Below are positions 36,801-62,401 of a stretch of DNA of 64,000 nt, in pieces; position 1 is the first letter of the stretch, and each line of letters opens with the position of its first letter. The notes under the pieces are model-generated. The model was not told the DNA's origin, made no database searches, and saw nothing but the letters and a program-made list of their open reading frames with translations. Source of the DNA: Sipunculus nudus (taxonomy: Eukaryota; Annelida; Sipuncula; Golfingiida; Sipunculidae); the NCBI GenBank assembly GCA_026874595.1, contig CM049310.1:39497558-39561557 (forward strand). The letters run 5' to 3'. The position numbers and the translations under genes are program-made.

Positions 36801-39800
36801 GTAAATTGATTTCATAAGGGTTGAATTGTGAAAAAATTTGTTGTATTTGTGACATATATTTTCAGTATATTGTGAAACTCCTTTTGTAGTGCATTTAAGC
36901 ATTCTTAAAAATTTTTATAGCCATTTAAATATATGGAAATACTGCTTTTGCTTATGCCATCATTTTAAAATGAAACAGTCTTGCTTTGTGTAAGTATAAA
37001 TAATCATATCAGAATAAAAGAAAACTGAGAATTTACTGTAAAATCTAAGAGCCATACTCTATTTATTAATTATTTATTTTACTTAATAACAATTTTAATT
37101 ATAAGAAATTTCTTCGTTCAGTGCTACTGTATTAGTTGTAGGAGTGTTTTTCTTCAGTAGATTCATTCATAATGAAATAATAAAGGGAATGGTGAATAAA
37201 CCCCCAAGTGTTCACTCAGATTATGAAGTCTTAAGAAAGAAATGACGTATGTTGTCTTGCACAAAATTTACAATGTTTTAAACCTTGATGTATTTTCAGA
37301 TTGGAATATCAAAGTGAGTAAATTTCCTCGAAAATCAAAACCTGATGAAGAACTTGCAAATGGGCTCAAGTACACTTTTATCAAAGATGAACACCAGTTT
37401 ACAACTGAAGGTGCAACGTTAAGGTGACTATTCTATGGTACATCTTAAATTGCCACATGGTATACGTATGGTATGAGTATATCCCATTTGTTATGGACAT
37501 TAGCATGGTGAATGGTCTCCCCCAAGAAATTGAACAGAAGTGAACGTTGAACAACCTAGTGCATTTTTGCTTAAAATTATCATTTATTTTTTCATATTAG
37601 TCCAGTATTTCTACAAAGTAGAAATATATATTCCCCCCCCCCCCCCACAATGAAAATTAATAGTGACAAGTAATAATTTTGCACCTTGGCCCTGTAGCAA
37701 TAACATTTACCGGACTTAACCACGTCGCAGGCCTAAATACCATTGTTACAATTGTGACGTCATAATCGTTGCAGTAGTAACACACAGTTGACCCTCGGCA
37801 TAAGTCACCTACCTGACTTAAGTCATCTTATTGCAACAGACCCTTGATATTTATTTTAGACACTGACCTACCAGTACTTTTTAAGCAACATAGCCTATCC
37901 AAACTACCTCTGTTACTGCTGACTTATGGGTAGCTGGGGAGGGCTTGGGTTGATAGACTGAGGCACAGGGATTGAAGGCCATGGGGGAGACATCTAATTA
38001 TCACACTGATCCTTGTCAGAAGCATAATTATATCATTTCTTTCTCAGGGCATTTGATAATTGTATTGGTGCTTTCACTTTGTTAGTTATATGTCAGATGT
38101 ACTTTTCCAGCTCATGATTTTGCTATCATGAATTTAATGTATTTCAGAGCATATTACACTCCAGGGCATACAGATGATCACATGGTGTTATATCTAGAGC
38201 AAGAAAATGCAGTTCTTACAGGAGACTGCATTCTAGGAGAAGGAAGCACTGTAAGCCATGAGTTTATTATTTTAGAAATGTTTTAAAGTAGCCAAAGGTG
38301 TGTACGCCCTTAATTATTCTTCAATTTCTTGAAAATAAAAGGTGAAATTCATATACTTAAAAAAAAATAATGTTTGGAGTTATGATAATATCATGAATTT
38401 TTTTCTGAGTGTTTAGAAATGCTCTTGTCAATTTTCTCATTTCATTGTAAAGTAGAAGCATCATTAGCTTTAACACACTGTGCAGCCACTTAACCTTTGG
38501 AGGGGGGGGGGGCAGTTTGACTTTAAGATAATTGCAGAGAACCTCATAGGCTGTACATTCATGCCTGTGCATCAAACCTCTATGTTCAAAGTCTCATCAG
38601 GCCAAAAAAAATATAGGGTTTGGTTCTCAGGCACCGCACTTATAAATTTTAACCCCCCCCCCCCCCAAAAAAAAAAACTTTTATTTTGATTTTCAGTAGA
38701 AACTTACCAATTTTGAGCTCCAGCCACTCAGACATTTCTTGAAAAAAGTTAAAATAATACAATTTTGAAAAGATTTCCTTTGTTATGTAGTGATTTTATT
38801 CTGTTATTATCATGCTTTTCCCTGATCATATGAGATTTTCTTTGTCGAAACATACAAAAAAGGTAAAAAAACAAGAAAAAATTGCGCTGATTTCTGAAAA
38901 GTGCAAGAGAACCCAACCATATTTGCCCTGAAATAATGAAATTGCTTTGGAGACTTCTTTTAAACGTCACTATACAAAGTAGGAAATGGTGTCAGTGCAA
39001 GATTTTAACTAGTAATACTAATTGTATCAGAAATGGCCAGGTCACTTTTTGTGAGGAGTTTATCACTGACTAACCTGTATGTTGTTTATCTTCAGGTATT
39101 TGAAGAACTGTTTGACTATATGAAAACATTGGAAAAGGTGAGGCAATTGAAAGCTTCACTGTTATATCCTGCCCATGGACCTGTGGTGAAGGAAGCAGAT
39201 GCCCACATTGCAGGGTACATCAAACATCGAAATGATAGGGAAAACCAGATACTGCAGGTAAGATTTATATATACTGTATGTGTTTTGTTCAAAGTAAAGA
39301 GGTCGCTTATTATTCAAAATTCACCTTTTATCCACATCTGTATACATAAGAACACTATGCTTGTCTGGAATCTCACATATTGTCCCTATTTATAATCATA
39401 GTTGACATCACAAAAGAATTTCCAGGGACTCCAAAGAGTTTCATACAGCACACACCTCAAGAAATCCAACACATGCTTAATCATTTGTATGATAATGTGT
39501 ATGACCTTAAAATATAATGAAAAAACCTTTAATTTTGAAATTTCGGAATTAAGTATAAGCTTGAAAACTTAGATCTTTTTAGAAAATAATCAAAAACACA
39601 CAAAGAAATTTGATGTTTTGTTTAAAAACTATTTTGTGAATAATAAATATACCCGGTAAATATTCTGATATTTAAGAAAGAGTTTTAAGAAAGGTTTCTA
39701 CTTGCTTTAATGAAGCTGGAGGACCCGTTGATTTGTCAGTGGGGTTAAGAATATTATTACAGTAATCATATTTGTGAAATCATTATGCTTTAGATGAAGA

Positions 39801-46120: not shown

Positions 46121-48582
46121 CTAAAAACCTTCAAAAATCTTCTCTGAAATCAGCCATCCAAATGGTTCAATATTTCAAAGAAATGATTCCAGAGACAAGC
46201 TCTCTCAAGTTTGTTCAAATGGTTTTGGTTTGATGAATTTTGGCCAAGTTACAGGAATTTGAAATTAGTCATTTGGCAAGAAAGCATAATAACATAACAA
46301 ACTCAGAAACAATAGGAGCTAGGATCACCAATTTTTGCGCAATTGTTGGTCACATGAATCATATTTTAAATTGCAGTTTTTGTGGCGCCATCTACATCGA
46401 CGTGTTTTTTACGGTCAGAAACCTTGTATTTCAGCCACTTTCAGCTTAAAAATGTTTTATGATGAAACTGTCAAGCTGAATGGTTTACTTTTTCACAAGA
46501 ATATTCTAGGATAGGATTTCTTTTAATTGTATAAGAATAGGTTGGGTTCATTGATTTTGGTAGATTTACAGAAAGCTTGAGTTGGTCTTGAGGCCATAAG
46601 CAAGCTAATTTCAAATTGAGGACCCAATAGTATTCTTCTGCAAAAGCGTTGTTTCAATTAATGTAACATTGCATTATCTAAGGTGACCTTTGACCAGTTT
46701 ACTTAAATGATATTTGGCACCTTTAAAATGAAGGACCATCTTTTATTATTAAAACATTTTTTTTTTTAAATCATATGAATACATCAGCTTGAAAGAAAGC
46801 ATTTTATATGATATAGCATGATATATCAACCTGAAATTGGGCATATTTATGCATATCGGATAGCTTTGTCGTATACAAAACTGTTTGCACCACCTACAAT
46901 AATTTTTGCATTGTGTGACCCTGCTTATTTCTCAGAAGGGTGTTGATATATCAGTCTGAAATTGGGTATATGTATCCATCTCTGATAGCTTCGTCGTATA
47001 CAAGACTAGTGGTGCTACCTATAATAATTTCTTGCTGTGTGTACCCATGCCAGAATTCCAGCAGTGATGTTTGTGTAATTGGTTCTTGTTCAAAATGTTT
47101 AGTACTTGCATTGTTCATTTACATGTTACACATGTAATTGAAAAGTAATGGTCCAGCATTGAGGCATTATACCTGGTGTATATCCCATTGCACAGGGTGC
47201 ATTAGGCCTGTAGGCCTTGTTAAGAATTTTATCTCAATTTCATACAGGTATTCACAACCTTTTTTTTTCAAGCTACATCCAGAATATGCAGGGGCATATC
47301 AAATCTGTTCCACAGATCAAGTTTTTTCTTTTCATTTTAATTATTATAAATAATTCGTTAATTTATTGCATTTCTCTAATGTTCATGGTAAAGTTGTTGA
47401 TTTCGAACTCTCTTGTCACTGTTCAACAAAAGACTTTCATAAAAAACATAATTTTCTCCTGCGACTTCACCAGGTAGGAACAAAATTAATCCAGGAAATA
47501 TACAATACTGATATCATAAGCTATAGCTCCCCTTATCAGTATAACAAAATCAGTTGTAAAGCTTGTTCATGCCTTTATATCCAGAAACATTTTACAACCG
47601 ATTTATATTTTTCAAATTTAGAAGATTGTTAGTTCCTGATTTTTGGAAGGCAACATTTTTTTTAAAGTGTACAGTGTCAGCAGCTGTGGTTAGCACCAAT
47701 TTTTTAACCACCTGTATAATTGAAACGTATGTTTAATGTTTTTGTCCATTATTCAAAGTATTTGGTCCACGTTTTCCCCATATTAGCATCTTATATTACT
47801 ATCAAGAAGATTCAATATTGAATCTCCTTGTTACTATTGATTGTTACTTTTTTCTCATTTATCATCAAAAAGAAATGTTTTCATTCATATAATTATACTA
47901 GCAGATATATATACACGATTTTGCCACGAATAATGTTAAATGTGTAAGAAAAACCTTGTTTTTTTGTGCTTAATTATATCAGAAAAAGTCATTATAACCG
48001 TTGGATTTTCACGGAGTCAGCACAATAGGTTAGGCCAGTAAACTTATAGCTTAGGCGCAAGCTTTGAACTCTTGAGTGCTCTCGCCTTCGGTATTAAACA
48101 TTTCTTAAACAACAATATTATGAATCGTCTGGTACCTCATTCTAAACGTAACGTAATGCATGGAATGGAACAGCAGTCTGAATGGTGCATTCCAGTTTTG
48201 TTAAACGTATCCTTTTTCACAGTTTATTAGGCAGAACAAAAGACTGGTTTATATCTGTACCTGTATAATCATCTTTCCCGTAGAGAGCTCGTGTTAAAAT
48301 CTTCAGTCAAGCATGACCACTGCTTGCTTGCGTTTGGATAGTGTGAGGTTTAAAAACCCCATGTAGGGTCTAATGAAATTAATTAGTTATAATTAACCAC
48401 GTTATTATTGTTCAGCACAGAATCCTGAGATATCTTCCTTCAACTTGATCCTTAAGCTGCGTTTAGTGGGCGCGCGGTATGCGAAAAAGATTTTTTTTCG
48501 TTGGTAACACGAACGACAGACACAATCTACAGATATATATTATTTATTAATGCAAAAGAGAAAATGAAAAATATCACAGACA

Positions 48583-48691: not shown

Positions 48692-48880
48692 TTAACATAA
48701 GTCCCTTCTTCTCTGGCCCAAGTCAAGATCACTAATATCAACGCTTATCTCAGGAATACAGTCCTCCCAGGATCTGAGTGAGATAATTTCCTCCAAGGAC
48801 AACGCACTTTTACAGATGGCAGGGTTCTGTTGTGACGAACAGCAGTTTATCTGTGTGGTATTCTCATCTACCGGTAGATG
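48692..48880 (-). pseudogene. Out-of-frame C-terminal tail of copy A
   Basis: In the shifted frame it reads LPVDENTTQINCC, then ALSLEEIISLRSWEDC, IPEISVDISDLDLGQRRRDL and a stop. It is clearly homologous to the last 60 residues of copy B, so the frameshift is recent or the tail is still used some other way. Confidence 0.7.
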
Positions 48881-49244
48881 GCAGCCTCTGCTGCGCTTCT
48901 AGCGTTTCCATCTTCACAAGAAGAGCTGGTTGTGGCGCCCTCTGTCCTCGCTCCATTTCAAGAAGTCCAGGGAATTTACTGTAATCTATGTGATACTCTG
49001 ATCCGACCTCGATAAAGAGCGGCTGGTCTACTGGCACGGAGGGTTTTGTCGTCTGCTCTGTATGTGACGTAATTTTGAGTTTCACCATGAATCCATAGTG
49101 ACTGTAATAATGATGGTTCAAGCCGCCTGTAAAATCCACATGGTGATGTGAAGTGAAACAACGTGAGTCACCCTGAAGTAAATAATCCCTTGACAGAGAT
49201 GTCGTCTGCTGAAATGGATAAGTTGACATTAGTAGAGCTGCCAT
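48864..49244 (-). CDS. Uncharacterised intronless family, copy A (126 aa, frameshifted)
   Basis: ATG at 49242-49244 begins MAALLMSTYPFQQTTS. The middle carries the family core KITSHTEQTTKPSVPVDQP and SEYHIDYSKFPGLLE. No signal peptide, membrane segment or known domain is visible. Compared with copy B, about 11 bp are missing near 48,890. The frame therefore ends early in RLPSTGR, while the conserved C-terminal segment remains readable in another frame (48,692 to about 48,880). The product, if made, lacks the acidic SLEEIISLRSWEDC tail. It has a TATA box 155 bp upstream. Function is unknown; this is either a truncated gene or a young pseudogene. Confidence 0.55.
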   Translation of the reverse strand: MAALLMSTYPFQQTTSLSRDYLLQGDSRCFTSHHHVDFTGGLNHHYYSHYGFMVKLKITSHTEQTTKPSVPVDQPLFIEVGSEYHIDYSKFPGLLEMERGQRAPQPALLVKMETLEAQQRLPSTGR

Positions 49245-49392
49245 AGGATCACCTTTACCACTCGATCCTTCAGTGAAGTGAGTGTGAAACGTAGTTTCGA
49301 CGCCTATTGGTAGTTATTTCCACTCTGCAGAATTATCGATGTGAATGCCTCGAGGTTCTGAGATCATCTGATAAGGAATGACTGGGGATTAT

Positions 49393-49400
49393 CCTTATAT
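49393..49400 (-). promoter_or_regulatory. TATA box of copy A
   Basis: ATATAAGG on the minus strand, 155 bp upstream of the ATG. The same motif sits at the same distance in copy B, and a degenerate form in copy C. It is followed by GATAATCC, which contains a TAATCC (OTX/Pitx-like) word. Confidence 0.55.
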
Positions 49401-49456
49401 GATGTCTGCCGTCTTGTGAAGTGCTCAGAGTTTGTCACATCAAGTCACTGAGGATG

Positions 49457-49627
49457 CGTTGTTTCAAAGGACACTGGACAAACAACAGAGTGTGCTGATA
49501 ACTCATTAACTGCTCCTAAAAGAACAAAGAGAGCGGGTGTTCACGTCGCCATCCTTGCGTGACCATGGTTTGTCCAGTGTTAGAACTGGGGGTTTCTTCA
49601 AGTACCAAACAATATTTGATGTTAATT
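49457..49627 (-). promoter_or_regulatory. Conserved upstream element, instance 1 (copy A)
   Basis: The shared block includes (as read on the plus strand) TTGTTTCAAAGGACACTGG, AGAACAAAGAGAGCGGGTGT, GCGTGACCATGG and AATATTTGATGTTAATT. The same block occurs at six other places in 50-61 kb, placed about 210-380 bp upstream of each gene copy. Confidence 0.6.
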
Positions 49628-50263
49628 TATTGCGTACCGATGAACTGGTGGCTTGAGAGAACTGAACCGTGACCGGAAAACTCTCAAATAATATTCAATA
49701 ATGCTTACAAACAATACCTTGATCTGTATATACTTCAAAGAGGCATGTGTTAGGATCAGCTCTTAAATTCATTCAGTGTTTAAGTTCACAGTAGTTTTAT
49801 CATATCGACCCTGATTTTGTTATTTGGTTCTATGCTGTTGAACTTAAATTTTAAATGTTTTATCATAAATGTGTGTCAGGAGCGTTAGGACAGTATTAAA
49901 TTTCTTGTTAAATACTAGATACCTTTATATGCATATATCCCAGTGATAAACGCATAGGTGTGTGTGTGTGTGTGTGTGTAAGGATGATTTTTCCCCATAT
50001 TTATGAAAAAGCAAATATTTCAGCATTGTGTAAACTGAAAAATGTAAAACCTAACCTTCCGTGAGAAATGTCCATCTCTGATCCAAATCTGTTCCTCAAT
50101 TAAAGTTGACTGCAAAATACATTCTGGCAATTTTTTTCATGATTGAATTATGAAAATATAAAAATCCCTACCTCTTATCATTTTTTCCAAATAAAATATG
50201 TTTATCATTTATCTAAATATGAGAATTACACCACAGCGACTGCTTTCTCTCTTTTGTAGTATC

Positions 50264-50381
50264 CTGATAACTCATTAACTAATCCCAAAAGAGCAAAGAG
50301 AGCGGGGACTCTAATCAGGCGTGACCATGGGTTGTCCAGTGTGAGAACTGGGGGAACCAAACAATGTTTGATGTTAATTAT
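50264..50381 (-). promoter_or_regulatory. Conserved upstream element, orphan instance 2
   Basis: It carries GATAACTCATTAACT, AGAGCAAAGAGAGCGGGGAC, AGGCGTGACCATGG and ATGTTTGATGTTAATTA. No family reading frame lies within several hundred bases downstream on the minus strand. Confidence 0.55.
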
Positions 50382-50858
50382 TATCATAACCAAAGGAGTT
50401 ATGGTTTGGCAGAATTGAAGCGTGACCGAGAAGCTGTCTGCCTTTACTTTATGTTGTTTACAAACTACCTTTCGTCTCAGTTTACTTCAAAGATTAATAA
50501 ACTAATAAACTTAGGGATCACTACAGAAGGACTGATTCGGTGTTTACAATTACACGTACATTCCTGAGGAAAGCATTGAGTTAAATTCATCAAATTTTCA
50601 AAATCAGATTTTATTCATGTATTCAATGCAGAACTTTTTATTTAACTTTGAGAACTTGTTATATTTTGCAAAAAGACAATAAGTAATGATATTATTTAGT
50701 CAAATAATAATGCAATATTAATTTTATTAGACAAGTGGGTTTTAATCTTATGTCAAATCATAATCATAATACAAAAAAAATTATTAAGAGACTGAAATTC
50801 TCTTCATAATCTAACAATTTATATTAATTTGGTTCAATGTAATGAGATTATGATTATG

Positions 50859-50890
50859 CTCTCTCTCTCTCTCTCTCTCTTTATCTCTCT

Positions 50891-50937
<47 letters not shown>
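50859..50937. repeat. (CT)n microsatellite with TTATCTCTC interruptions
   Basis: About 79 bp of CT repeats. Confidence 0.95.
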
Positions 50938-50941
<4 letters not shown>

Positions 50942-51606
50942 GTTATAGTAACTGAACTCAAGCGGCACTGGACAATAACACAAAATTTTGATGCTTATAA
51001 TTTTTCTATTTTTTGACGTTTTGAATATTAAAAAAAAATTATTGGTACCCTGCATATACGCAGATATTATCTTTATGATTATAAGGTTGATATGGTTGCC
51101 AGTTCTACCTGGTGGTCGTTGGGACTTTCCCTTTGGGAAGCAATAATAATTTAGTATTGCGTATGTCTTTGCAGTGTTTTAGCTGAGTTCATAGTGTGCC
51201 TTATTGTATACGGCTCAAGAAAATTAAAGCACTAAGTTACCGCCAGAAATAGAGTTTTATTTATGATAATTATGAATTAGGCCACGTCAGTGTTACCGTT
51301 GGTCCGCTGAGGAACACACCAGGTGGCGCTCTTTGGTGGGGAATCCACCTAAGTTTCGAAGAGTGTGCATGCATATCTCTAAATAAAATGCACCCGTAAT
51401 GGGAAGTTTAAATACATGTGAACCAGAATGATAATTTGAATAAGCAAGAACATTAATTTTTAAAAATATGTATATTCTATACATGTGCATATTCTTAAAC
51501 AGGCGTTATTTCTATGACATGGGTACTATAATGAGTAGGTCTGCTCGGGTCGGGTATATTCATAAAGTTATACACTCTGGTAGTGACATGGATGACGAGG
51601 TTCATT

Positions 51607-51629
51607 GGGGGGGGGGGGGGGGGGGGGGG
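51607..51629. repeat. Poly-G tract
   Basis: About 23 consecutive G. Confidence 0.9.
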
Positions 51630-52053
51630 ACCCAGAGAATCATTTTCAGAAACCACTGTCCCCAACCCCTCCCAGAAAATTATAAATGTCTTCACTCCAA
51701 CCATATTAAATGGAATACATATTTTGCTTAAATAGAGGATTTTTTTATACATTAAACACTTTCTTTTTCATTATTTTTTTATTTGATTTAAACCATAAAT
51801 ATTCACCCCCGTTATCACGTATTCGTTTAACAACGTCATAGGCTAACATTTGTGATTATAAACTGAAAAAATAGGCAATAATTTTAGATTTTCCAATATG
51901 AAATGCAAAATTAAATGTTTATTGAGAAGAAGACGAATTAATTATAAACTAGACGTGGAAATTATTTTGAAATCATAAAAATGTTTTTTAGATATTTAAT
52001 ACTTTAAAGAAATCACTAAAATGTGAGGGGTGCCAATATTATATATAGGCTTA

Positions 52054-52056
<3 letters not shown>

Positions 52057-52101
<45 letters not shown>
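52057..52101. repeat. (AT)n microsatellite
   Basis: About 22 AT units. Confidence 0.95.
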
Positions 52102-52104
<3 letters not shown>

Positions 52105-52310
52105 AAATGTTCCCTGTATTGTGTGATATATCCACGCTCCGGTCACCGGATGAGGAAATGTTCATCCCAGGTGGCGCCCTTTCGTGGGTGTTCTCATCAC
52201 GTGCGCAATTTACAATTTTTTTTTCACTCCAACCATATTATATGAAATACATATTTCGCTTAGACAAAGCAAAGGAAGCTTCTGTCATCCCACCAGTCCA
52301 TCGACAAGTG

Positions 52311-52458
52311 ATTAATTAACATCAAACATTGTTTGGTACTTCCAAGAAACCCTAAGACCAGACAAAGGATCAACCATGGTCACGCCTGAAAGGCGACGAC
52401 AATACTCGCTCTCTTTGTTCTTTATGGAGCAGTTAAAGTGCTATCAACACCCTTGTTG
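52311..52458 (+). promoter_or_regulatory. Conserved upstream element, orphan instance 3
   Basis: In plus orientation: TTAACATCAAACATTGTTTG, ACCATGGTCACGCCTGAA, GGCGACGACAATACTCGCTC and TCTTTGTTCTTT. No family coding frame follows. Confidence 0.55.
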
Positions 52459-52594
52459 TATGAAGAAAATATCTAAAAATGGTGCTTCAGTACTTTACTA
52501 TAACAATTAGAAATAAAAAAGCTGCATTGTTAACACAGTTCCAGCAGAGCAAAGGGTATATTACTAGCACTGAAAGGAGGTTATCTGGAGGGTA

Positions 52595-53235
52595 TTTCTA
52601 TGATATGGGCGATATAATCAGTAGTTCTGGTCTGGGCGGGCATATTCATAAAGTTAAAAATTCTGATAGTGACATGCATGGCGAGGATCATTGTATACGA
52701 CCACAGATTTTGTTTGGGACAAACCACAGAAAAAAATGGACGGAGATCCCAGTCCCCCAAACCCTACCAGAAAATTATAAATGTCCTCACTCCAACCATA
52801 TTAAATGGAATACGTATTTTGCTCAGACAAAGGAAATGTTTATACATTTTTACACTTTCTTTTTCATTATTTGAAACCATTTATATTCACCCCCTTTTCA
52901 GACATTCGTTTATCAACGTCTCAGGCAAACATATTTGATTATAAACTGAAGAAAGGCAATTATAAATTTTTCAATACGAAATGCAAAATTGAATGTTTAT
53001 TGAGGAGAACATAAATTAATTATACACTAAACATGTAATTATTTTGAAATCATAAAAGATATTTTTAGATATAAAATGTTACCCAAAAAAAATAAATTAA
53101 ATGTGTGGGGGCGCCATTATCTTAGGTGTGGTGATGTTAAAGTACCCTACAGCGTGAAATATATCCGCGCTCCCGTTACCGGATGAGGAAAGGTTCACCT
53201 CCAGGTGGCATTCTATCGTTGGGTCCATGTAACGG
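52595..53235. repeat. Diverged duplicated segment, copy 2
   Basis: Partner of 51,500-52,245, about 1.07 kb apart, with one orphan upstream element between them. Confidence 0.65.
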
Positions 53236-53708
53236 GCGCAACATGTAACAAAAATATATGGGCCTGTAAACAAGTATGACTACATGAGAAGCATTGAATC
53301 TGCTTGGAAACTGCTTTGCTACTCAGTAGGCTCGATCAATGTAGAACAATGCAAGATGTTGTAAAATTATACACACACGAATAGAGTCCACGGACTATCC
53401 ATAGAATGTGGTTTTGCCTTACAAAATGTGGGGGTTAAGGTGGATAATTACGAAAATACAAGGAATGGTGCCAGAAGAGGCAGAAAATGAGGAAAGAAAA
53501 AAGATAAACTAAGGACCATCTAAAAAATATATGTATTGTAAACTTTACTAGTAAATTTAAAAATATTATCCAGGTGAGATCACCGTTTTTTCAATTACTT
53601 TTATTGAGCGAAACTTAGAATTATGCTCTTTTGAATTTCGGAGTGAGCTAGGTCGATTGGATTGATAATATTAAATTTGCTTGGATATTTCCATAACCCA
53701 AATCATTC

Positions 53709-53712
<4 letters not shown>

Positions 53713-53774
<62 letters not shown>
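53713..53774. repeat. (CT)n(CA)n microsatellite
   Basis: About 47 bp of CT followed by 15 bp of CA, downstream of copy B's 3' end. Confidence 0.95.
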
Positions 53775-53850
53775 GAGGTTTACACATACATACCAATAGC
53801 TTCAAATCCATCATGCAAAGAGAGACAAAGTCATACAAATACAATTTGTA

Positions 53851-53856
53851 TTTATT
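53851..53856 (-). terminator. Polyadenylation signal candidate for copy B
   Basis: AATAAA on the minus strand, about 140 bp past the stop codon of copy B. Confidence 0.4.
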
Positions 53857-53993
53857 ATGGCACATCGAGATTTTCATAACATATATTATGTGGTGTATAT
53901 GACAGATATATACAAACATAAAGAATTAACAGATATATATCACAGACAGTATCACAGTGGCACATTCCTTGCTTTTATATTATCAACAGCGAT

Positions 53994-54575
53994 TTACAAA
54001 TCCCTCCGGTTCTGTCCCAGGTCCAGGTCACAGATCAAGTCCACACTGATATCAGGCAAACAGTCCTCCCAGGACCTGAGAGAGATAATTTCTTCCAAGG
54101 ACAACGAACTCTCATGGCCATTCTCATTCTCACTGACCGCAGGATTCAGACGCGACAAACAGCAAGTTGACGGTGTGATGTCACCATCTACCGGTAGAGG
54201 GCGGCCTCTGTCTGTCGTCCACTGCGCCTCTGCCGTTGTCATCTTCACAAGTAGGGCTGGTTGTGGCGCCCTCTCTCCTCGCTCCTCCTCAAGAAGTCCA
54301 GGGAATTTACTGTAATCTATGTGATACTCTGATCCGACCTGGATAGAGAGCGGCTGGTCTACCGGCACGGAGGGTTCTGTCGTCTGCTCTGTATGTGACG
54401 TCATCTTGAGGTTCACCGTGGGTTCGTATTGGCTGTAACAGTAGTGGTCCATGCCGCCTCCGTAATCTTCATAACTGTATGAGTTGTAACAATGCGAGTC
54501 ACCTTGAGGAAAGTAATCCCTAGAGAAAGACGTCATCTGCTGTAATGAATAGCATGACATGAGTACGGCTGCCAT
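53994..54575 (-). CDS. Uncharacterised intronless family, copy B (193 aa, intact)
   Basis: The start is ATG at 54573-54575 (MAAVLMSCYSLQQMTSFS), chosen because copies A and C begin the same way. In order: an N-terminal part rich in Tyr, Ser and Gln; the core KMTSHTEQTTEPSVPVDQP; the 14-residue SEYHIDYSKFPGLL; a charged segment EEERGERAPQPALLVKM; and an acidic/hydrophobic tail SLEEIISLRSWEDC ... DLICDLDLGQNRRDL. There is no signal peptide or transmembrane helix, so it is probably intracellular. The acidic amphipathic tail would fit a protein-interaction or activation segment, but that is a guess. It is a single exon with a TATA box 155 bp upstream. It is the only clearly intact member here and matches no family I recognise. 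Confidence 0.7.
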   Translation of the reverse strand: MAAVLMSCYSLQQMTSFSRDYFPQGDSHCYNSYSYEDYGGGMDHYCYSQYEPTVNLKMTSHTEQTTEPSVPVDQPLSIQVGSEYHIDYSKFPGLLEEERGERAPQPALLVKMTTAEAQWTTDRGRPLPVDGDITPSTCCLSRLNPAVSENENGHESSLSLEEIISLRSWEDCLPDISVDLICDLDLGQNRRDL

Positions 54576-54722
54576 ATTTTCGCATTTAACTCTCAATATT
54601 CCAATTAAATGACTGTACAGTGTAGTTCTGTTGGTAGTTGCCAGTTATATCCACTCTGCGGATTTTCGACGCTTATGTATCGAGGCTCTGAGATCATCTG
54701 TTGAGGATTCAATGGGCAGTAT

Positions 54723-54730
54723 CCTTATAT
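54723..54730 (-). promoter_or_regulatory. TATA box of copy B
   Basis: CATATAAGGATA on the minus strand, 155 bp upstream of the copy B ATG and at the same spacing as in copy A. Confidence 0.55.
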
Positions 54731-54786
54731 GTTGGCTGCCGTCTTGTGAAGTGCTCAGAGTTTGTCATATACAGCCCCTGATGACG

Positions 54787-54950
54787 CATTGTTTCAAAGG
54801 ACACTGGTCAAACAACCGAGCGTGTTGATAACTCATTAAAAGAACGAAGAGAGCGGGTGTTGTCGTCGTCATTCAGGCGTGACCATGGTTTTTCTGCTGC
54901 GAGGACCGGGTGTTTCTTTAGAAAACCAAACAATATTTGATGTTAATTAA
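54787..54950 (-). promoter_or_regulatory. Conserved upstream element, instance 4 (copy B)
   Basis: The same block order as in copy A: TTGTTTCAAAGGACACTGG, GTGTTGATAACTCATTAAA, GAGAGCGGGTGTTGTCG, GGCGTGACCATGG and AATATTTGATGTTAATTA. Confidence 0.6.
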
Positions 54951-55469
54951 TATGACAACTTAGGGACATAATTATAGTAAGACTAAGCTGAAGCGTGACC
55001 AGGTGTGGTATCTTCACGTTATGTTGTTAACAAACTATCCTTCATCTTAAAGGATTTCAAAGAGTAAAGTGATCTAAAAAGTTATTACAACATAATGGCT
55101 AATTCAATTTTAATGATCAGAATAATAAATTTATAATAGATGGAATAAGTTTATTGATTAATAGTACATAATTCATAATTACAACATAGTGTAATAATTA
55201 CTGAAAACTAGCAATAAACTCGTAATGCTATGAAATCTATACTGCTGACCAACACAAAAAGTCAACAGGCTTATTTCCTCTGCATTCACACAGTCTCAAG
55301 ATGATTAACACTAGTGTCATAAAATTACTTCACAATTATGAGGAAATTTAGCACTGAGTGACATAATTAAAAATACTCTTACCCCTAAATTATCACTATT
55401 TCATTCTCTGCAGGACAATCTACAAGTAGAATAAACATTTTACTATTGTAATAATAATAATAATAACAT

Positions 55470-55724
55470 TTATAAACATCTACTTACAACTTTTCGATAA
55501 GCAGTCCACTTTCGCATGTATACATGCGACTTTGTAACTGTACGCCCCCTCTTGAGTGGATTATGGTGTTCTCCATCATATTGTAAGGACAAATTTTCCT
55601 GAACTCTGGATGACGGTTCGTTCAATGGATCAGGGATTATAAATTGAGGACGTCCAGGTGCCTGAATACAAACATAATACTGTGGTTCCTGAAACATTAT
55701 AGTTCTCTGAATATTCATTGACAT
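55470..55724 (-). CDS. Possible small ORF or exon in the divergent spacer (84 aa), unit 1
   Basis: ATG at 55722-55724 begins MSMNIQRTIMFQEPQYYV. The frame is not low-complexity, with APGRPQFIIPDPLNEPSS and a basic end HVYMRKWTAYRK. It is followed immediately by a strong donor-like GTAAGTAG. A matching acceptor (CTACTTGTAG) lies about 60 bp on but leads quickly to a stop. No homology is recognised. It is duplicated unchanged at 58,901-59,155, which is uninformative because the whole segment is. Confidence 0.22.
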   Translation of the reverse strand: MSMNIQRTIMFQEPQYYVCIQAPGRPQFIIPDPLNEPSSRVQENLSLQYDGEHHNPLKRGRTVTKSHVYMRKWTAYRKVVSRCL

Positions 55725-55815
55725 TTTTATTTTGTATAATTATTGCTGTTCATTTTTAGTATATATTTTATTAAGTCCAGTTTGTTCAGCCCGTGTTGAT
55801 CTTATATCATATTGG

Positions 55816-56430
55816 GAGGCAGTTAGGGAGCGAGAAGGTAAATAAGTGAGGGAGCTAAGTGCGAATGAGTGAGGATACGAGAAAGAGAGGGAGGGAATGA
55901 GAGAAGGAAGGGGAGAGCGTGAAGTTTGGGAAGTTTGGGACCATGAGGGTAAATTAGGAAGAGCAGATAAAGAGTGGAGCGAATGAATGAGAATGAGAGA
56001 AGAGACAGAGTGAGGCAGAGTGTTAGAAAAAGATGGGGGGGGGGGGGACTGAAGGGACGGATAAAGAGTGAGTTAAAAGGAAGGACGAGGGTAAGAGTGG
56101 AGGATTGAGTGAGAGATGGAGGGAGAAATTAAACGTGAAGAAAGGTGAGGGAGTGAAGGATGGAGTGAGCGAATGAGTAGGGGAGATGGTGAGAGTGACG
56201 GAATGAGAATATTGATTGAGGGAGAGACTGAAGATAAGTTAAGGGGGAAACGAGTGATGAGGGAGAGGGGGGGGGGAGGGAGCGAATGGAGGGGAGAGGG
56301 AGGACGCGAAATGGACAGAAAGAGAGGATGAGGGAGCGATTGAGGGAGGGATCGAATGAAGGAGGAGTGATGGAAGAAGCGAAAGAAAAGGAGTGAATAA
56401 AGAAGTCCGAAGGAAGAATGAATGAGTAGC
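55816..56430. repeat. Purine-rich degenerate GA repeat, unit 1
   Basis: About 600 bp of plus-strand GAGGGA/GAATGA/GAGAGG words, with few pyrimidines apart from T in TGA. The minus-strand frame here translates to Ser/Pro-rich by-product (56,129-56,599). Confidence 0.85.
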
Positions 56431-57471
56431 GACAGAGGATATATCCTGTTGCATATTTATATCTGTATAAAGACGACATCAAGCAACACACTTTGTGAAT
56501 GAAAGACTTCATTATGTGACAATATCTCTGACAGTGTTTCATTATGCTGTCTCGTCTCTGCATGCGGACAATGTCTCTCATGGAATTTTGTATCAACATA
56601 TAATATTATTCATAAAGAATGTTCCGTTATAAAGCTGAAAACGTTTGTATCAAAGTCACATTTTCCTCAGTAATTGGTGCGACAGTATTTATGTAACCAT
56701 TTATTATAGGACTTCAATTATGGTCAGGCTACAACGTTACAACTAAACAGGGAAAAGGACACCATAACAAAGGAAAATTTTATCGAAATTATATTAATCT
56801 CTTGAAGAAATGTCCGAGCGACTGCCGCTCAAAATCAGAAAAAAAAATACTACTGAAAATCAAATCATAAAATGATGCTGCCTAATAATTCCGCAACATT
56901 TATATGCCCCTTTAGTCTTCTCAATACATTAAAGTAAATTAATATAAATAATAAGATTTAAACAAGAATTTCAGTGGTTGTAATTAAATATATTTGTATT
57001 AGAATTTATAATTGGAATAAGATTAAAACCAGTTCTCCTTTGTACAATATATTTATCCAATTTTTATCATCAATTTGGCCGCAAGCTGAAAAAAAGGTCC
57101 ACATGACTGTTGTATGATCATATTTATTATAAATATAAATATTATAAATTTATTATTTCTATAAAAAAAGAAAGCTGTAAAATTTTGCAAGTTTAATTAA
57201 ACAGTTCTCAATTTATCAACATATCAAAACACGATGTGAAAATTTAAAATACTCCCTAAGTTTTACTCAGGATATAAGAAAGACAAACCCTGCTTATGAA
57301 TTAGATTGTAAACATGGAATCAGTCGTTTTGCAGTAATAACAAAGTTTATTGTATTAATATTTGATGTAAGTTGAGATGAAAGGTAGTTTGCAAACAATA
57401 AAAAGTACAGGCAGACAGCTTTCCGGGTCACACTTCAATTTTGTTATACCACAATCCCCTGGTTAGGTTAA

Positions 57472-57650
57472 TAATTAACAACAAACGATGTTTGGTACTT
57501 ACAAGAAACAACCAGTCCTCGCAGTGGACAAGCCATGGTCACGTCTGAATGGCGACGACAACACCCGCTCTCTTTGTTCTTTTAAGAGCCGTTAATGAGT
57601 TATCAACACACTCTGTTGTTTGTCCAGTGTTATTTGAAACAACGCGTCCT
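57472..57650 (+). promoter_or_regulatory. Conserved upstream element, instance 5 (fragment D)
   Basis: Plus orientation, about 210-380 bp upstream of the D start codon: AGCCATGGTCACGTCTGAA, GGCGACGACAACACCCGCTC, TCTTTGTTCTTTTAAGAGC, TATCAACACACTCTGTTG. Confidence 0.6.
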
Positions 57651-57855
57651 CAGGGGCTGGATGTGAGAAACTCTGAGCACTTCACAAGACAAGGTCATCA
57701 AATAAGGATAATCCACATCACTGCCTAACAGATGATCTCAGAACCTCAAGGCGTTCACATCGATAATTTTGCAGAGTGTATATACTTAGAAATTCAGCGT
57801 CGAAACTACATTCCACAGTAACTGCACTGAATAATTGAGTGTACCAGTTGATAAT

Positions 57856-58071
57856 ATGGCAGCTCTACTCATGTAAAGTTGGTGCTATCCATTACAACAG
57901 ACAACAACTCTCTTAAGGGAGCATTTACTTCATGGCGACTCGCATTTTTCCACATCACACAGTCATGTGGATTTTTCAGGTAACTTGGGTCATCGTAATC
58001 ACAGTCAATGCGAATCCACGGTGAACTTCAAGATGACGTCACATACAGAGCAGCGGACCGTACCCTCCGTG
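57856..58071 (+). pseudogene. Fragment D: truncated 5' end of the C-type gene
   Basis: It begins ATGGCAGCTCTACTCATGTAA, so there is a stop at codon 7 as in copy C. It is readable after that stop up to TEQRTVPSVP, where coding homology stops at the duplication junction and B-promoter sequence follows. It lacks the invariant core and the tail, so it cannot encode a family protein. Confidence 0.85.
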
Positions 58072-58217
58072 CCAGTTATATCCACTCTGCGGATTTTCGA
58101 CGCTTATGTATCGAGGCTCTGAGATCATCTGTTGAGGATTCAATGGGCAGTATCCTTATATGTTGGCTGCCGTCTTGTGAAGTGCTCAGAGTTTGTCATA
58201 TACAGCCCCTGATGACG

Positions 58218-58381
58218 CATTGTTTCAAAGGACACTGGTCAAACAACCGAGCGTGTTGATAACTCATTAAAAGAACGAAGAGAGCGGGTGTTGTCGTCGT
58301 CATTCAGGCGTGACCATGGTTTTTCTGCAGCGAGGACCGGGTGTTTCTTTAGAAAACCAAACAATATTTGATGTTAATTAA
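58218..58381 (-). promoter_or_regulatory. Conserved upstream element, instance 6 (no gene attached)
   Basis: Duplicate of instance 4, created by the 3.43-kb duplication. Downstream on the minus strand there is only fragment D, in opposite orientation. Confidence 0.6.
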
Positions 58382-58900
58382 TATGACAACTTAGGGACAT
58401 AATTATAGTAAGACTAAGCTGAAGCGTGACCAGGTGTGGTATCTTCACGTTATGTTGTTAACAAACTATCCTTCATCTTAAAGGATTTCAAAGAGTAAAG
58501 TGATCTAAAAAGTTATTACAACATAATGGCTAATTCAATTTTAATGATCAGAATAATAAATTTATAATAGATGGAATAAGTTTATTGATTAATAGTACAT
58601 AATTCATAATTACAACATAGTGTAATAATTACTGAAAACTAGCAATAAACTCGTAATGCTATGAAATCTACACTGCTGACCAACACAAAAAGTCAACAGG
58701 CTTATTTCCTCTGCATTCACACAGTCTCAAGATGATTAACACTAGTGTCATAAAATTACTTCACAATTATGAGGAAATTTAGCACTGAGTGACATAATTA
58801 AAAATACTCTTACCCCTAAATTATCACTATTTCATTCTCTGCAGGACAATCTACAAGTAGAATAAACATTTTACTATTGTAATAATAATAATAATAACAT

Positions 58901-59155
58901 TTATAAACATCTACTTACAACTTTTCGATAAGCAGTCCACTTTCGCATGTATACATGCGACTTTGTAACTGTACGCCCCCTCTTGAGTGGATTATGGTGT
59001 TCTCCATCATATTGTAAGGACAAATTTTCCTGAACTCTGGATGACGGTTCGTTCAATGGATCAGGGATTATAAATTGAGGACGTCCAGGTGCCTGAATAC
59101 AAACATAATACTGTGGTTCCTGAAACATTATAGTTCTCTGAATATTCATTGACAT
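58901..59155 (-). CDS. Possible small ORF or exon in the divergent spacer (84 aa), unit 2
   Basis: Duplicate of the frame at 55,470-55,724 within the second 3.43-kb unit; the same translation and the same reservations apply. Confidence 0.22.
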   Translation of the reverse strand: MSMNIQRTIMFQEPQYYVCIQAPGRPQFIIPDPLNEPSSRVQENLSLQYDGEHHNPLKRGRTVTKSHVYMRKWTAYRKVVSRCL

Positions 59156-59245
59156 TTTTATTTTGTATAATTATTGCTGTTCATTTTTAGTATATATTTT
59201 ATTAAGTCCAGTTTGTTCAGCCCGTGTTGATCTTATATCATATTG

Positions 59246-59860
59246 GGAGGCAGTTAGGGAGCGAGAAGGTAAATAAGTGAGGGAGCTAAGTGCGAATGAG
59301 TGAGGATACGAGAAAGAGAGGGAGGGAATGAGAGAAGGAAGGGGAGAGCGTGAAGTTTGGGAAGTTTGGGACCATGAGGGTAAATTAGGAAGAGCAGATA
59401 AAGAGTAGAGCGAATGAATGAGAATGAGAGAAGAGACAGAGTGAGGCAGAGTGTTAGAAAAAGATGGGGGGGGGGGACTGAAGGGACGGATAAAGAGTGA
59501 GTTAAAAGGAAGGACGAGGGTAAGAGTGGAGGATTGAGTGAGAGATGGAGGGAGAAATTAAACGTGAAGAAAGGTGAGGGAGTGAAGGATGGAGTGAGCG
59601 AATGAGTAGGGGAGATGGTGAGAGTGACGGAATGAGAATATTGATTGAGGGAGAGACTGAAGATAAGTTAAGGGGGAAACGAGTGATGAGGGAGAGGGGG
59701 GGGGGGAGGGAGCGAATGGAGGGGAGAGGGAGGACGCGAAATGGACAGAAAGAGAGGATGAGGGAGCGATTGAGGGAGGGATCGAATGAAGGAGGAGTGA
59801 TGGAAGAAGCGAAAGAAAAGGAGTGAATAAAGAAGTCCGAAGGAAGAATGAATGAGTAGC
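59246..59860. repeat. Purine-rich degenerate GA repeat, unit 2
   Basis: Second copy of 55,816-56,430, differing mainly in G-run lengths. Apparent frames on both strands (59,502-60,029; 59,602-59,826) are by-products. Confidence 0.85.
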
Positions 59861-60901
59861 GACAGAGGATATATCCTGTTGCATATTTATATCTGTATAA
59901 AGACGACATCAAGCAACACACTTTGTGAATGAAAGACTTCATTATGTGACAATATCTCTGACAGTGTTTCATTATGCTGTCTCGTCTCTGCATGCGGACA
60001 ATGTCTCTCATGGAATTTTGTATCAACATATAATATTATTCATAAAGAATGTTCCGTTATAAAGCTGAAAACGTTTGTATCAAAGTCACATTTTCCTCAG
60101 TAATTGGTGCGACTGTATTTATGTAACCATTTATTATAGGACTTCAATTATGGTCAGGCTACAACGTTACAACTAAACAGGGAAAAGGACACCATAACAA
60201 AGGAAAATTTTATCGAAATTATATTAATCTCTTGAAGAAATGTCCGAGCGACTGCCGCTCAAAATCAGAAAAAAAAATACTACTGAAAATCAAATCATAA
60301 AATGATGCTGCCTAATAATTTCGCAACATTTATATGCCCCTTTAGTCTTCTCAATACATTAAAGTAAATTAATATAAATAATAAGATTTAAACAAGAATT
60401 TCAGTGGTTGTAATTAAATATATTTGTATTAGAATTTATAATTGGAATAAGATTAAAACCAGTTCTCCTTTGTACAATATATTCATCCAATTTTTATCAT
60501 CAATTTGGCCGCAAGCTGAAAAAAAGGTCCACATGACTGTTGTATGATCATATTTATTATAAATATAAATATTATAAATTTATTATTTCTATAAAAAAAG
60601 AAAGCTGTAAAATTTTGCAAGTTTAATTAAACAGTTCTCAATTTATCAACATATCAAAACACGATGTGAAAATTTAAAATACTCCCTAAGTTTTACTCAG
60701 GATATAAGAAAGACAAACCCTGCTTATGAATTAGATTGTAAACATGGAATCAGTCGTTTTGCAGTAATAACAAAGTTTATTGTATTAATATTTGATGTAA
60801 GTTGAGATGAAAGGTAGTTTGCAAACAATAAAAAGTACAGGCAGACAGCTTTCCGGGTCACACTTCAATTCTGTTATACCACAATCCCCTGGTTAGGTTA
60901 A

Positions 60902-61080
60902 TAATTAACAACAAACGATGTTTGGTACTTACAAGAAACAACCAGTCCTCGCAGTGGACAAGCCATGGTCACGTCTGAATGGCGACGACAACACCCGCTC
61001 TCTTTGTTCTTTTAAGAGCCGTTAATGAGTTATCAACACACTCTGTTGTTTGTCCAGTGTTATTTGAAACAACGCGTCCT
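60902..61080 (+). promoter_or_regulatory. Conserved upstream element, instance 7 (copy C)
   Basis: Duplicate of instance 5, positioned about 205-385 bp upstream of the copy C start codon. The TATA position in C reads AAATAAGGATAATCC (61,129-61,143), a degraded TATA box. Confidence 0.6.
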
Positions 61081-61285
61081 CAGGGGCTGGATGTGAGAAA
61101 CTCTGAGCACTTCACAAGACAAGGTCATCAAATAAGGATAATCCACATCACTGCCTAACAGATGATCTCAGAACCTCAAGGCGTTCACATCGATAATTTT
61201 GCAGAGTGTATATACTTAGAAATTCAGCGTCGAAACTACATTCCACAGTAACTGCACTGAATAATTGAGTGTACCAGTTGATAAT

Positions 61286-61462
61286 ATGGCAGCTCTACTC
61301 ATGTAAAGTTGGTGCTATCCATTACAACAGACAACAACTCTCTTAAGGGAGCATTTACTTCATGGCGACTCGCATTTTTCCACATCACACAGTCATGTGG
61401 ATTTTTCAGGTAACTTGGGTCATCGTAATCACAGTCAATGCGAATCCACGGTGAACTTCAAG
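61286..61462 (+). pseudogene. 5' part of copy C, interrupted by a stop at codon 7
   Basis: ATG GCA GCT CTA CTC ATG TAA: the family start MAALLM is followed by TAA where copy A has TCA, a single-base change. The same frame then continues open with family-like residues (YPLQQTTTLL, HGDSHFS, HVDFSGN) into the main frame. Confidence 0.7.
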
Positions 61463-62160
61463 ATGACGTCACATACAGAGCAGCGGACCGTACCCTCCGT
61501 GCCGGTAGACCAGCCGCTCTCTATCCAGGTCAGATCAGAGTATCACATAGATTACAGTAAATTCCCTGGACTTCTTAAGGAGGGGCGAGGACAGAGGGCG
61601 CCACAACCAGCTCTTCTTGTGAAGATGGCACCGACAGAGGCAGGGCATTACACAAGGAGAGGTTGCCCTCTACCGGCAAAATGTAACATCACTCAATCAA
61701 CTTACGAGTCCATGATGAACCTCAAGATGATATCACATACAGAGCAGACGAAAGAACCCTCCGTGCCGGTAGACAAGCCGCTCTCTATCAAGGTCGGATC
61801 TGAGTATCACATAGATTACAGTAAATTCCCTGGACTTCTTGAAGGGGAGCGAGGACAGAGGGCGCCACAACCTGCTCTTCTTGTGAAGATGGCACCGACA
61901 GAAGCAGGGCATTACACAAGGAGAGGTTGCCCTCTACCGGCAAAATGTAACATCACTCAATCAACTTACGAGTCCATGATGAACCTCAAGATGATATCAC
62001 ATACAGAGCAGACGAAAGAACCCTCCGTGCCGGTAGACAAGCCGCTCTCTATCAAGGTCGGATCTGAGTATCACATAGATTACAGTAAATTCCCTGGACT
62101 TCTTGAAGAGGAGCGAGGACAGAGGGCGCCACAACCTGCTCTTCTTGTGAAGATGGCACC
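61463..62160 (+). repeat. In-frame 264-bp tandem repeat in copy C
   Basis: Three units; the second and third are almost the same sequence and the first is more diverged. Copies A and B have one unit each. Confidence 0.92.
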
Positions 62161-62401
62161 GACAGAAGCGCAGCAGACGACAGACAGAGGCTGCTCTCTA
62201 CCGGTAGATTGTGACATCAAACCGTCAACTTGCTGTTTGTCGCGGCAGAATCCTGAAATCAGTGAGAATGAGAGCAACCATGAGAGTTTGCTGTCCTTGG
62301 AAGAAATTATCTCTCTCAGATCCCGGGAGGACTGTTTACCTGATATCAGTGTGGACTTGATCTGTGACCTGAACCTGGGCCAGAACCGGAGGGATTTGTA
62401 A
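61463..62401 (+). CDS. Uncharacterised family, copy C (312 aa from first usable Met, three 88-aa repeats)
   Basis: The frame is open from 61,307; the first in-frame ATG after the codon-7 stop is 61,463. The family core SEYHIDYSKFPGLL occurs three times at a 264-bp (88-aa) period (TATCAC at 61,541, 61,805 and 62,069). Repeats 2 and 3 are nearly identical, including PLPAKCNITQSTYESM linkers. It ends with the family tail SLEEIISLRSREDC ... DLICDLNLGQNRRDL. The long intact frame suggests recent selection or recent origin, while the lost N-terminus and degraded TATA suggest decay. Function is unknown. Confidence 0.5.
   Translation: MTSHTEQRTVPSVPVDQPLSIQVRSEYHIDYSKFPGLLKEGRGQRAPQPALLVKMAPTEAGHYTRRGCPLPAKCNITQSTYESMMNLKMISHTEQTKEPSVPVDKPLSIKVGSEYHIDYSKFPGLLEGERGQRAPQPALLVKMAPTEAGHYTRRGCPLPAKCNITQSTYESMMNLKMISHTEQTKEPSVPVDKPLSIKVGSEYHIDYSKFPGLLEEERGQRAPQPALLVKMAPTEAQQTTDRGCSLPVDCDIKPSTCCLSRQNPEISENESNHESLLSLEEIISLRSREDCLPDISVDLICDLNLGQNRRDL

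Follow-up and report, generated by a model that had tools for sequence, protein, structure and literature searches.

The 64-kb stretch of the Sipunculus nudus genome analysed here (hereafter the window; C5:39497558-39561557, the assembly comprising 153 contigs and 1.43 Gb) carries a group of short, related genes belonging to a clustered family for which no relatives emerged from Pfam, NCBIfam, PHROGs or PDB. Self-comparison revealed homologous blocks at 48.7-49.7 kb (copy A, minus strand), 53.7-55.1 kb (copy B, minus strand) and 60.7-62.8 kb (copy C, plus strand), and the homology takes in the upstream region and reaches the 3' region (Table 1). The original prediction described copies A, B and C and a fragment D as intronless family members, and the region as one of rapid duplication, inversion and decay. 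All four are present, and tandem duplication, both orientations, broken copies and relics were indeed seen, but a complete frame exists in B only, the others being frameshifted (A), interrupted by a stop codon (C) or fragmentary (D). In A, an 11-nt deletion relative to B, located after the core, has broken the frame; the acidic tail SLEEIISLRSWEDC, present in B as predicted, is thus kept in A but out of frame. The stop codon of C occupies a position that is serine in most other copies, and the next ATG, at 61463, would yield a product of 312 aa. This copy carries a triplicated core consisting of three tandem 264-bp units, and its second and third cores show 2 differences in 210 bases. Fragment D and a second copy of the B promoter lie side by side where the junction of a 3.43-kb tandem duplication cuts C. 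In addition to relics E and F, a marginal nhmmer match to the copies was found at 48279-48419 (E = 0.0027).

Table 1. Family members, their parts and related features in the window (positions in the 64-kb stretch), followed by the family clusters in the genome (positions on the contigs)
Feature	Position	Strand	Remark
Copy B	53994..54575	-	complete intronless frame, 193 aa + TAA; ATG at 54575; only window member that is intact
TATA box of B, CATATAAGG	54723..54731	-	sequence
AATAAA 3' of B	53851..53856	-	sequence; likely polyadenylation signal (function inferred)
Core module of B, SEYHIDYSKFPGLL region	54240..54416	-	
Copy A	48698..49244	-	frame open up to codon 126, then frameshifted
TATA box of A, CATATAAGG	49393..49401	-	sequence
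Core module of A	48909..49085	-	
Copy C	61286..62401	+	TAA at codon 7 (61304-61306), open from there to the end
Core unit C1	61451..61627	+	
Core unit C2	61715..61891	+	264-bp tandem unit
Core unit C3	61979..62155	+	
Degraded TATA box of C, CAAATAAGG	61129..61137	+	sequence
Fragment D	57856..58076	+	5' end of C, truncated at the duplication junction; TATA position reads CAAATAAGG
Extra copy of B promoter	58069..58501	-	adjoins D; without coding region
3.43-kb tandem duplication, unit 1	54639..58076		self-comparison
3.43-kb tandem duplication, unit 2	58070..61506		99.7% identity to unit 1
Relic E	50259..50498	-	upstream region of a family member, coding part gone; nhmmer E = 3.7e-51
Relic F	52280..52462	+	upstream region of a family member, coding part gone; nhmmer E = 1.5e-40
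Intronless cluster C5	39.55-39.69 Mb		window type
Intronless cluster C10	57.64-57.69 Mb		
Intronless cluster, type K	C4 58.02-58.08 Mb		
Two-exon cluster, type T	C4 65.77-65.80 Mb		
Two-exon cluster, type U	C4 10.90-11.00 Mb		

The window copies share an upstream region, and a TATA box lies approximately 155 bp before the ATG, as CATATAAGG in A and B and as CAAATAAGG in C and D; its degradation in C had been recognized correctly. B begins with MAAVLM rather than the predicted MAALLM. A search for the core-encoding DNA pattern that tolerated up to three mismatches returned five occurrences in the window (one in A, one in B and three in C), all with zero mismatches, as against 0.42 expected, and five or more were reached by none of 100 shuffles. 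The 14-residue motif described as invariant is identical in these five cores but varies genome-wide. Directly before the core, within the coding region, B and C1 contain TGACGTCA, which is altered in A and lost in C2 and C3.

The family is real and larger than first seen. The B protein has 59 matches in the genome (E ≤ 1e-3; for a large family such a count is a lower bound), all of which lie in five tight clusters on three contigs. Three clusters (C5, C10 and type K) are intronless and two (types T and U) consist of diverged two-exon genes that have the core in common with them. For the family comparison, 32 genome stretches were taken, and 35 open reading frame (ORF) records of intronless genes were drawn only from core-bearing stretches among these or in the window (L035, which has two weaker matches, is not included). 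Fifteen of the 35, including B, are full-length (defined as an MA start, core, tail and >180 aa), and 3 of the 15 contain two cores. In the protein tree, K is split from C5 and C10 with full support and three C10 genes group together; 5 of the 9 inner branches are unresolved. The core tree left out 3 of 42 core copies that carry a stop codon.

In types T and U, exon 1 encodes the core, which is predicted to be N-terminal, and exon 2 is separate and has a conserved end. All nine exon-2 matches fall in the T and U clusters, and introns of 240-416 nt with GT...AG ends were found in four of seven loci, namely those in which both donor and acceptor were located. These genes resemble the window family in having the core module and an acidic protein, a TATA-like site in 6 of 6 promoters examined (8 genes) and no known domain (one protein examined). 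They differ in having one intron, the N-terminal position of the core and a strongly conserved C-terminus of their own; the comparison of the intronless tail with exon 2 was not significant (hhalign probability 0.7 of 100, E = 0.087). The core occurs in three architectures: at the N-terminus of two-exon genes, in the middle of intronless genes, and in tandem arrays of two or three. Stop codons interrupt some two-exon copies: L009 has a TAA inside exon 2, and L014 and L016 in the 10.9-Mb cluster both have an in-frame TAG at core codon 27 in an otherwise well-kept core, indicating shared decay or read-through. L011 and L012, T-type loci 10.5 kb apart, are 100% identical in nearly all of the ORF pieces listed, which would point to a very recent duplication or conversion.

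Substitution patterns were compared as proportions of changed synonymous (pS) and nonsynonymous (pN) sites. Judged in this way, the N-terminus of the window copies behaves like coding sequence (A-B: pS 0.55, pN 0.22, p = 3.6e-4; A-C: p = 0.044; B-C: p = 0.05). In the tail of A and B, 16 of 22.7 synonymous sites but only 7 of 85.3 nonsynonymous sites are changed (Fisher p = 7e-9), even though A no longer has its tail in frame. The core behaves differently. Its pS in the window is 0.10-0.15, which is below the N-terminal value (0.38-0.55) in each of the three comparisons (p = 0.0001 to 0.017); its pN/pS of 0.61-0.83 is not distinguishable from 1 (p = 0.38 to 0.80). Because synonymous sites are almost as well conserved as nonsynonymous ones, the identity of the window cores is no proof of selection on the protein; by this measure it shows recent sharing of DNA.

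The evidence for protein-level selection on the core comes from distant clusters, all conservation considered here being between paralogous clusters of one genome. In an alignment of 42 of the 48 core copies in 39 columns (five were left out for length and one lacks the motif; an indel displaces the columns beyond 31 in two of the 42), P6, L7, V11, Y15, F22, G24 and G31 are identical in every copy; D18, Y19, K21, P23 and L25 differ in one or two copies. Between clusters C5 and T, the core has a median pS of 0.84 and pN of 0.23 over 92 pairs (T vs U: 0.36 and 0.07). Core pS ranges from 0.79 to 0.88 between the window-type (C5 and C10) and two-exon clusters and is therefore saturated. Since the motif persists at such synonymous divergence, these comparisons place the core under purifying selection at the protein level; the tail is under such selection as well. 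When 12 full-length intronless proteins were compared across clusters and inside C5, median pN divided by median pS was 0.16-0.31 in the core, 0.28-0.39 in the tail, 0.47-0.64 in the N-terminus and 0.49-1.00 in the linker; in the three C10-C10 pairs, it was 0.08 for the core and 0.28 for the tail. The consensus of the selected core, approximately 40 residues long, is P-L-[ST]-[IV]-x-V-x3-Y-x-[IL]-D-Y-S-K-F-P-G-L...R-G...P-Q-P-A-L, and that of the tail is L-S-L-E-E-I-I-S-L-x-S-W-E-D-C-x-P-D-I-S. Within C5, pS rises from the core (0.15) through the linker (0.31) to the tail (0.38). The low value in the core is consistent with gene conversion, which, on this pattern, probably keeps nearby cores alike.

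A different explanation of the low synonymous change in the core is a function at the level of DNA or RNA, such as a binding site within the gene. The lower pS in the window core than in the N-terminus and the presence of TGACGTCA immediately ahead of the core in B and C1 would fit such a function. However, this sequence is not kept in the remaining window cores, and the saturation of core pS between the window-type and two-exon clusters indicates that there is no family-wide constraint of this kind, so that we regard this explanation as improbable.

All 16 proteins examined (15 full-length intronless proteins and one two-exon protein) are acidic, with isoelectric points of 4.2-5.5. None contains a hydrophobic stretch suitable for a membrane span or a clear signal peptide by the Kyte-Doolittle scale, and no 19-residue window exceeds 0.93 in any of the 15 intronless proteins. 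An AlphaFold model of B could be obtained, as the original prediction had proposed, but it was built from 3 sequences and was uninformative; its low pLDDT (31.8) is what either disorder or a shallow alignment would give.

The absence of a recognized domain, as predicted, was borne out: searches of Pfam, NCBIfam, PHROGs and PDB gave no acceptable match to the family proteins. No Pfam match rose above its curated cut-off, NCBIfam gave none at E ≤ 1, and the best PHROGs match, obtained with C, had an E-value of 0.1. The Pfam matches of C to DUF2529 (E = 0.00097), HicB-like_2 and HTH_3 all fell short of the curated cut-offs, and 12 members searched at E ≤ 1 yielded DUF2028 alone, in one member (E = 0.087). 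In the PDB, designed Bagel/'Cell surface protein' chains were matched at E = 5.2e-6, but this match was rejected because the top scores add up two to four near-identical repeats, and chains with a single repeat gave E-values of 0.66-1; profile searches with A2 and A3 did not exceed chance (best E = 0.75 and 0.81, respectively). One pattern match in viral contigs and 20 in genome contigs included no confirmed relative, and the core and tail strings, as well as 'nvBagel', do not occur in the literature searched.

Known systems offer partial likenesses. The tail resembles the acidic-hydrophobic C-terminal motif of the CITED transcriptional co-regulators, in which LGQN stands near the end. No match to the CITED model (PF04487) was obtained with B, with the tail of B alone or with a K-type tail, none of which has any Pfam match at E ≤ 10, or with the 12 members searched at E ≤ 1. 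Inhibitors of apoptosis and similar expanded families of molluscs carry known domains, and the window family differs from them in having no Pfam domain. Such mollusc families share tandem expansion with the window family, and the word 'intronless' occurs in the text of two papers on them (PMC8917759, PMC7831173).

The prediction of single-exon, TATA-driven genes agrees with the uninterrupted frame of B and with the promoters of the family. Of 41 promoters, 36 have a TATA-like site at 106 to 211 bases upstream of the ATG, as against 4.8 expected from shuffles, and C and D are among the five promoters without such a site. The search interval was picked after the window copies had been seen, and distances refer to the end of the ATG, exceeding by 3 those measured from its first base. 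L013, L016 and every copy whose start could not be located were left out of the 41. A TATA promoter combined with an intron-free coding frame, as found here, is the arrangement of immediate-early and stress-inducible genes. Among 25 consensus motifs tested across the 41 promoters, GTTAAT (35 promoters; 13.4 expected), TGTTKRY (40; 22) and CTTTGWW (34; 12.7) are over-represented with the four promoter groups pooled. The STAT/GAS (gamma-activated site)-like sequence TTCNNNGAA occurs in 13 of 22 C5 promoters (3.1 expected), 4 of 5 C10 promoters (0.7 expected), 2 of 8 K promoters and none of the six T/U promoters, giving a pooled count of 19 (5.6 expected). An NF-kB-like consensus is confined to 4 of the 8 K promoters (L017-L024; 0.2 expected) and absent from the other 33 (pooled, 4 vs 0.6 expected), and the amino-acid-response-like sequence TGATGNAAN is found in 5 of 6 T/U promoters (0.5 expected). 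Heat-shock pairs (5 and 0 promoters in the two orders; 4.9 expected for each) and half cAMP response elements (CREs; 21 vs 21.2) do not exceed expectation. The full CRE, AP-1, CArG and interferon-stimulated response element (ISRE) consensuses are absent from all 41 promoters, though merely 0.5 to 2.6 were expected. Single enrichments are weak because 25 motifs were tried, and the counts are not independent because cluster members inherit sites together.

Promoters were also aligned between clusters. One C10 promoter aligns to a C5 promoter with a score of 190, as against a maximum of 28 in 100 shuffles. The local scores of one K promoter against one C5 promoter, and of six intronless-cluster promoters against two two-exon promoters, were within the shuffle range; for this reason, a joint alignment of 35 promoters was not used as evidence.

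These promoters bear on the possibility that the genes form a stress- or immune-inducible effector family, intronless and TATA-driven for quick switch-on. The common TATA-like sites, the intron-free coding frame and the clusters with many broken copies agree with this idea, and the excess of GAS-like sites in C5 and C10, of NF-kB-like sites in K and of TGATGNAAN in T/U lends it weak support. However, no immune or stress element is common to all four promoter groups, heat-shock pairs and half CREs occur at expected counts, the core and tail evolve slowly rather than fast, and the proteins have no hydrophobic stretch suitable for secretion. We consider an inducible effector family less likely than not. 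An origin from mobile element or endogenous virus pieces rather than from host genes would account for several copies in both orientations with TATA and AATAAA flanking a single frame. Dispersed copies are what a mobile element would leave, but all 59 matches are confined to five tight clusters, and the two-exon relatives have GT...AG introns; no relative was confirmed in viral contigs, and PHROGs, which covers viruses of bacteria and archaea only, yielded nothing. Such an origin is highly improbable.

The intronless clusters might also have arisen as retrocopies, reverse-transcribed from a two-exon ancestor resembling the T and U genes and then spread in tandem after gaining a promoter, a scenario compatible with our preferred explanation below. 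That two-exon relatives carry the same core, that the intronless clusters lack the intron and that the tested intronless promoters do not align to two-exon ones are all in line with it. The promoter difference is weak evidence, however, because the K promoter that was tried fails to align to C5 too; moreover, only the core is confidently common to the two types, the tail and exon 2 showing no significant similarity, and a gain of the intron by the other line would explain the pattern equally well. We therefore regard retrocopying as possible but doubtful.

The explanation that we tentatively prefer, and consider quite possible, is that of a tandemly multiplying family of short genes for acidic proteins under birth-death evolution, whose proteins act as intracellular regulatory or docking pieces. 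Duplication, internal amplification of the core and decay are seen in the family; genes of the window type have no intron inside the coding frame, and the TATA-like box of the family lies at a similar distance within each cluster. The proteins would be soluble, acidic and largely disordered intracellular regulators working by short docking motifs. The core may bind a constant partner, and the acidic-hydrophobic tail may be a second binding motif, for instance for activation; the linker would be freer to drift than either, and the number of cores per protein (one to three) may set valency. Several points weigh against this explanation. The docking and activation steps derive from composition and motif pattern alone, and a poor model from 3 sequences is no demonstration of disorder. 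Among K genes, the ratios in three pairs are 1.00 for the core, 1.71 for the linker and 0.65 for the tail, and the median pN/pS of the core over 21 pairs is 0.87; with values near 1 in the core, some copies may be drifting. The promoter block is conserved to the same degree as much of the coding region, suggesting that part of the similarity reflects recency or conversion.

Other features of the window lie outside the family. An exon at 39033-39395 (plus strand) encodes part of a LACTB2-like metallo-beta-lactamase (PDB 4ad9, E = 1e-14), an ordinary and apparently intron-bearing neighbour. A tRNA-like match at 12497-12568 (plus strand; Rfam RF00005, 32.2 bits), not called by ARAGORN, is repeated at 9.1 kb with 74% identity and is probably a tRNA-derived short interspersed nuclear element. 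At 19384-22429, approximately 3 kb consist of tandem repeats whose period is near 83 bp. Between A and B, a short motif (roughly ggatgagga...caggtggc) was noticed by eye three times, at 51290-51350, 52150-52200 and 53170-53230, near a diverged direct repeat (51507-52039 and 52593-53120).

A motif that is 'invariant' among close tandem copies does not prove that the protein is constrained; in the present case, proof was supplied by distant clusters only. Fast-multiplying orphan gene families are common in invertebrate genomes and are mostly without a handle on function. In this family, the core may, though with considerable doubt, represent an undescribed interaction module of approximately 40 residues, and the genes a one-lineage regulatory toolkit of variable valency that extends over three architectures, its cores kept alike by conversion as linkers and N-termini diverge. 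Because the motif persists over these architectures at saturated synonymous divergence, it offers pull-down or structural studies a precise target.

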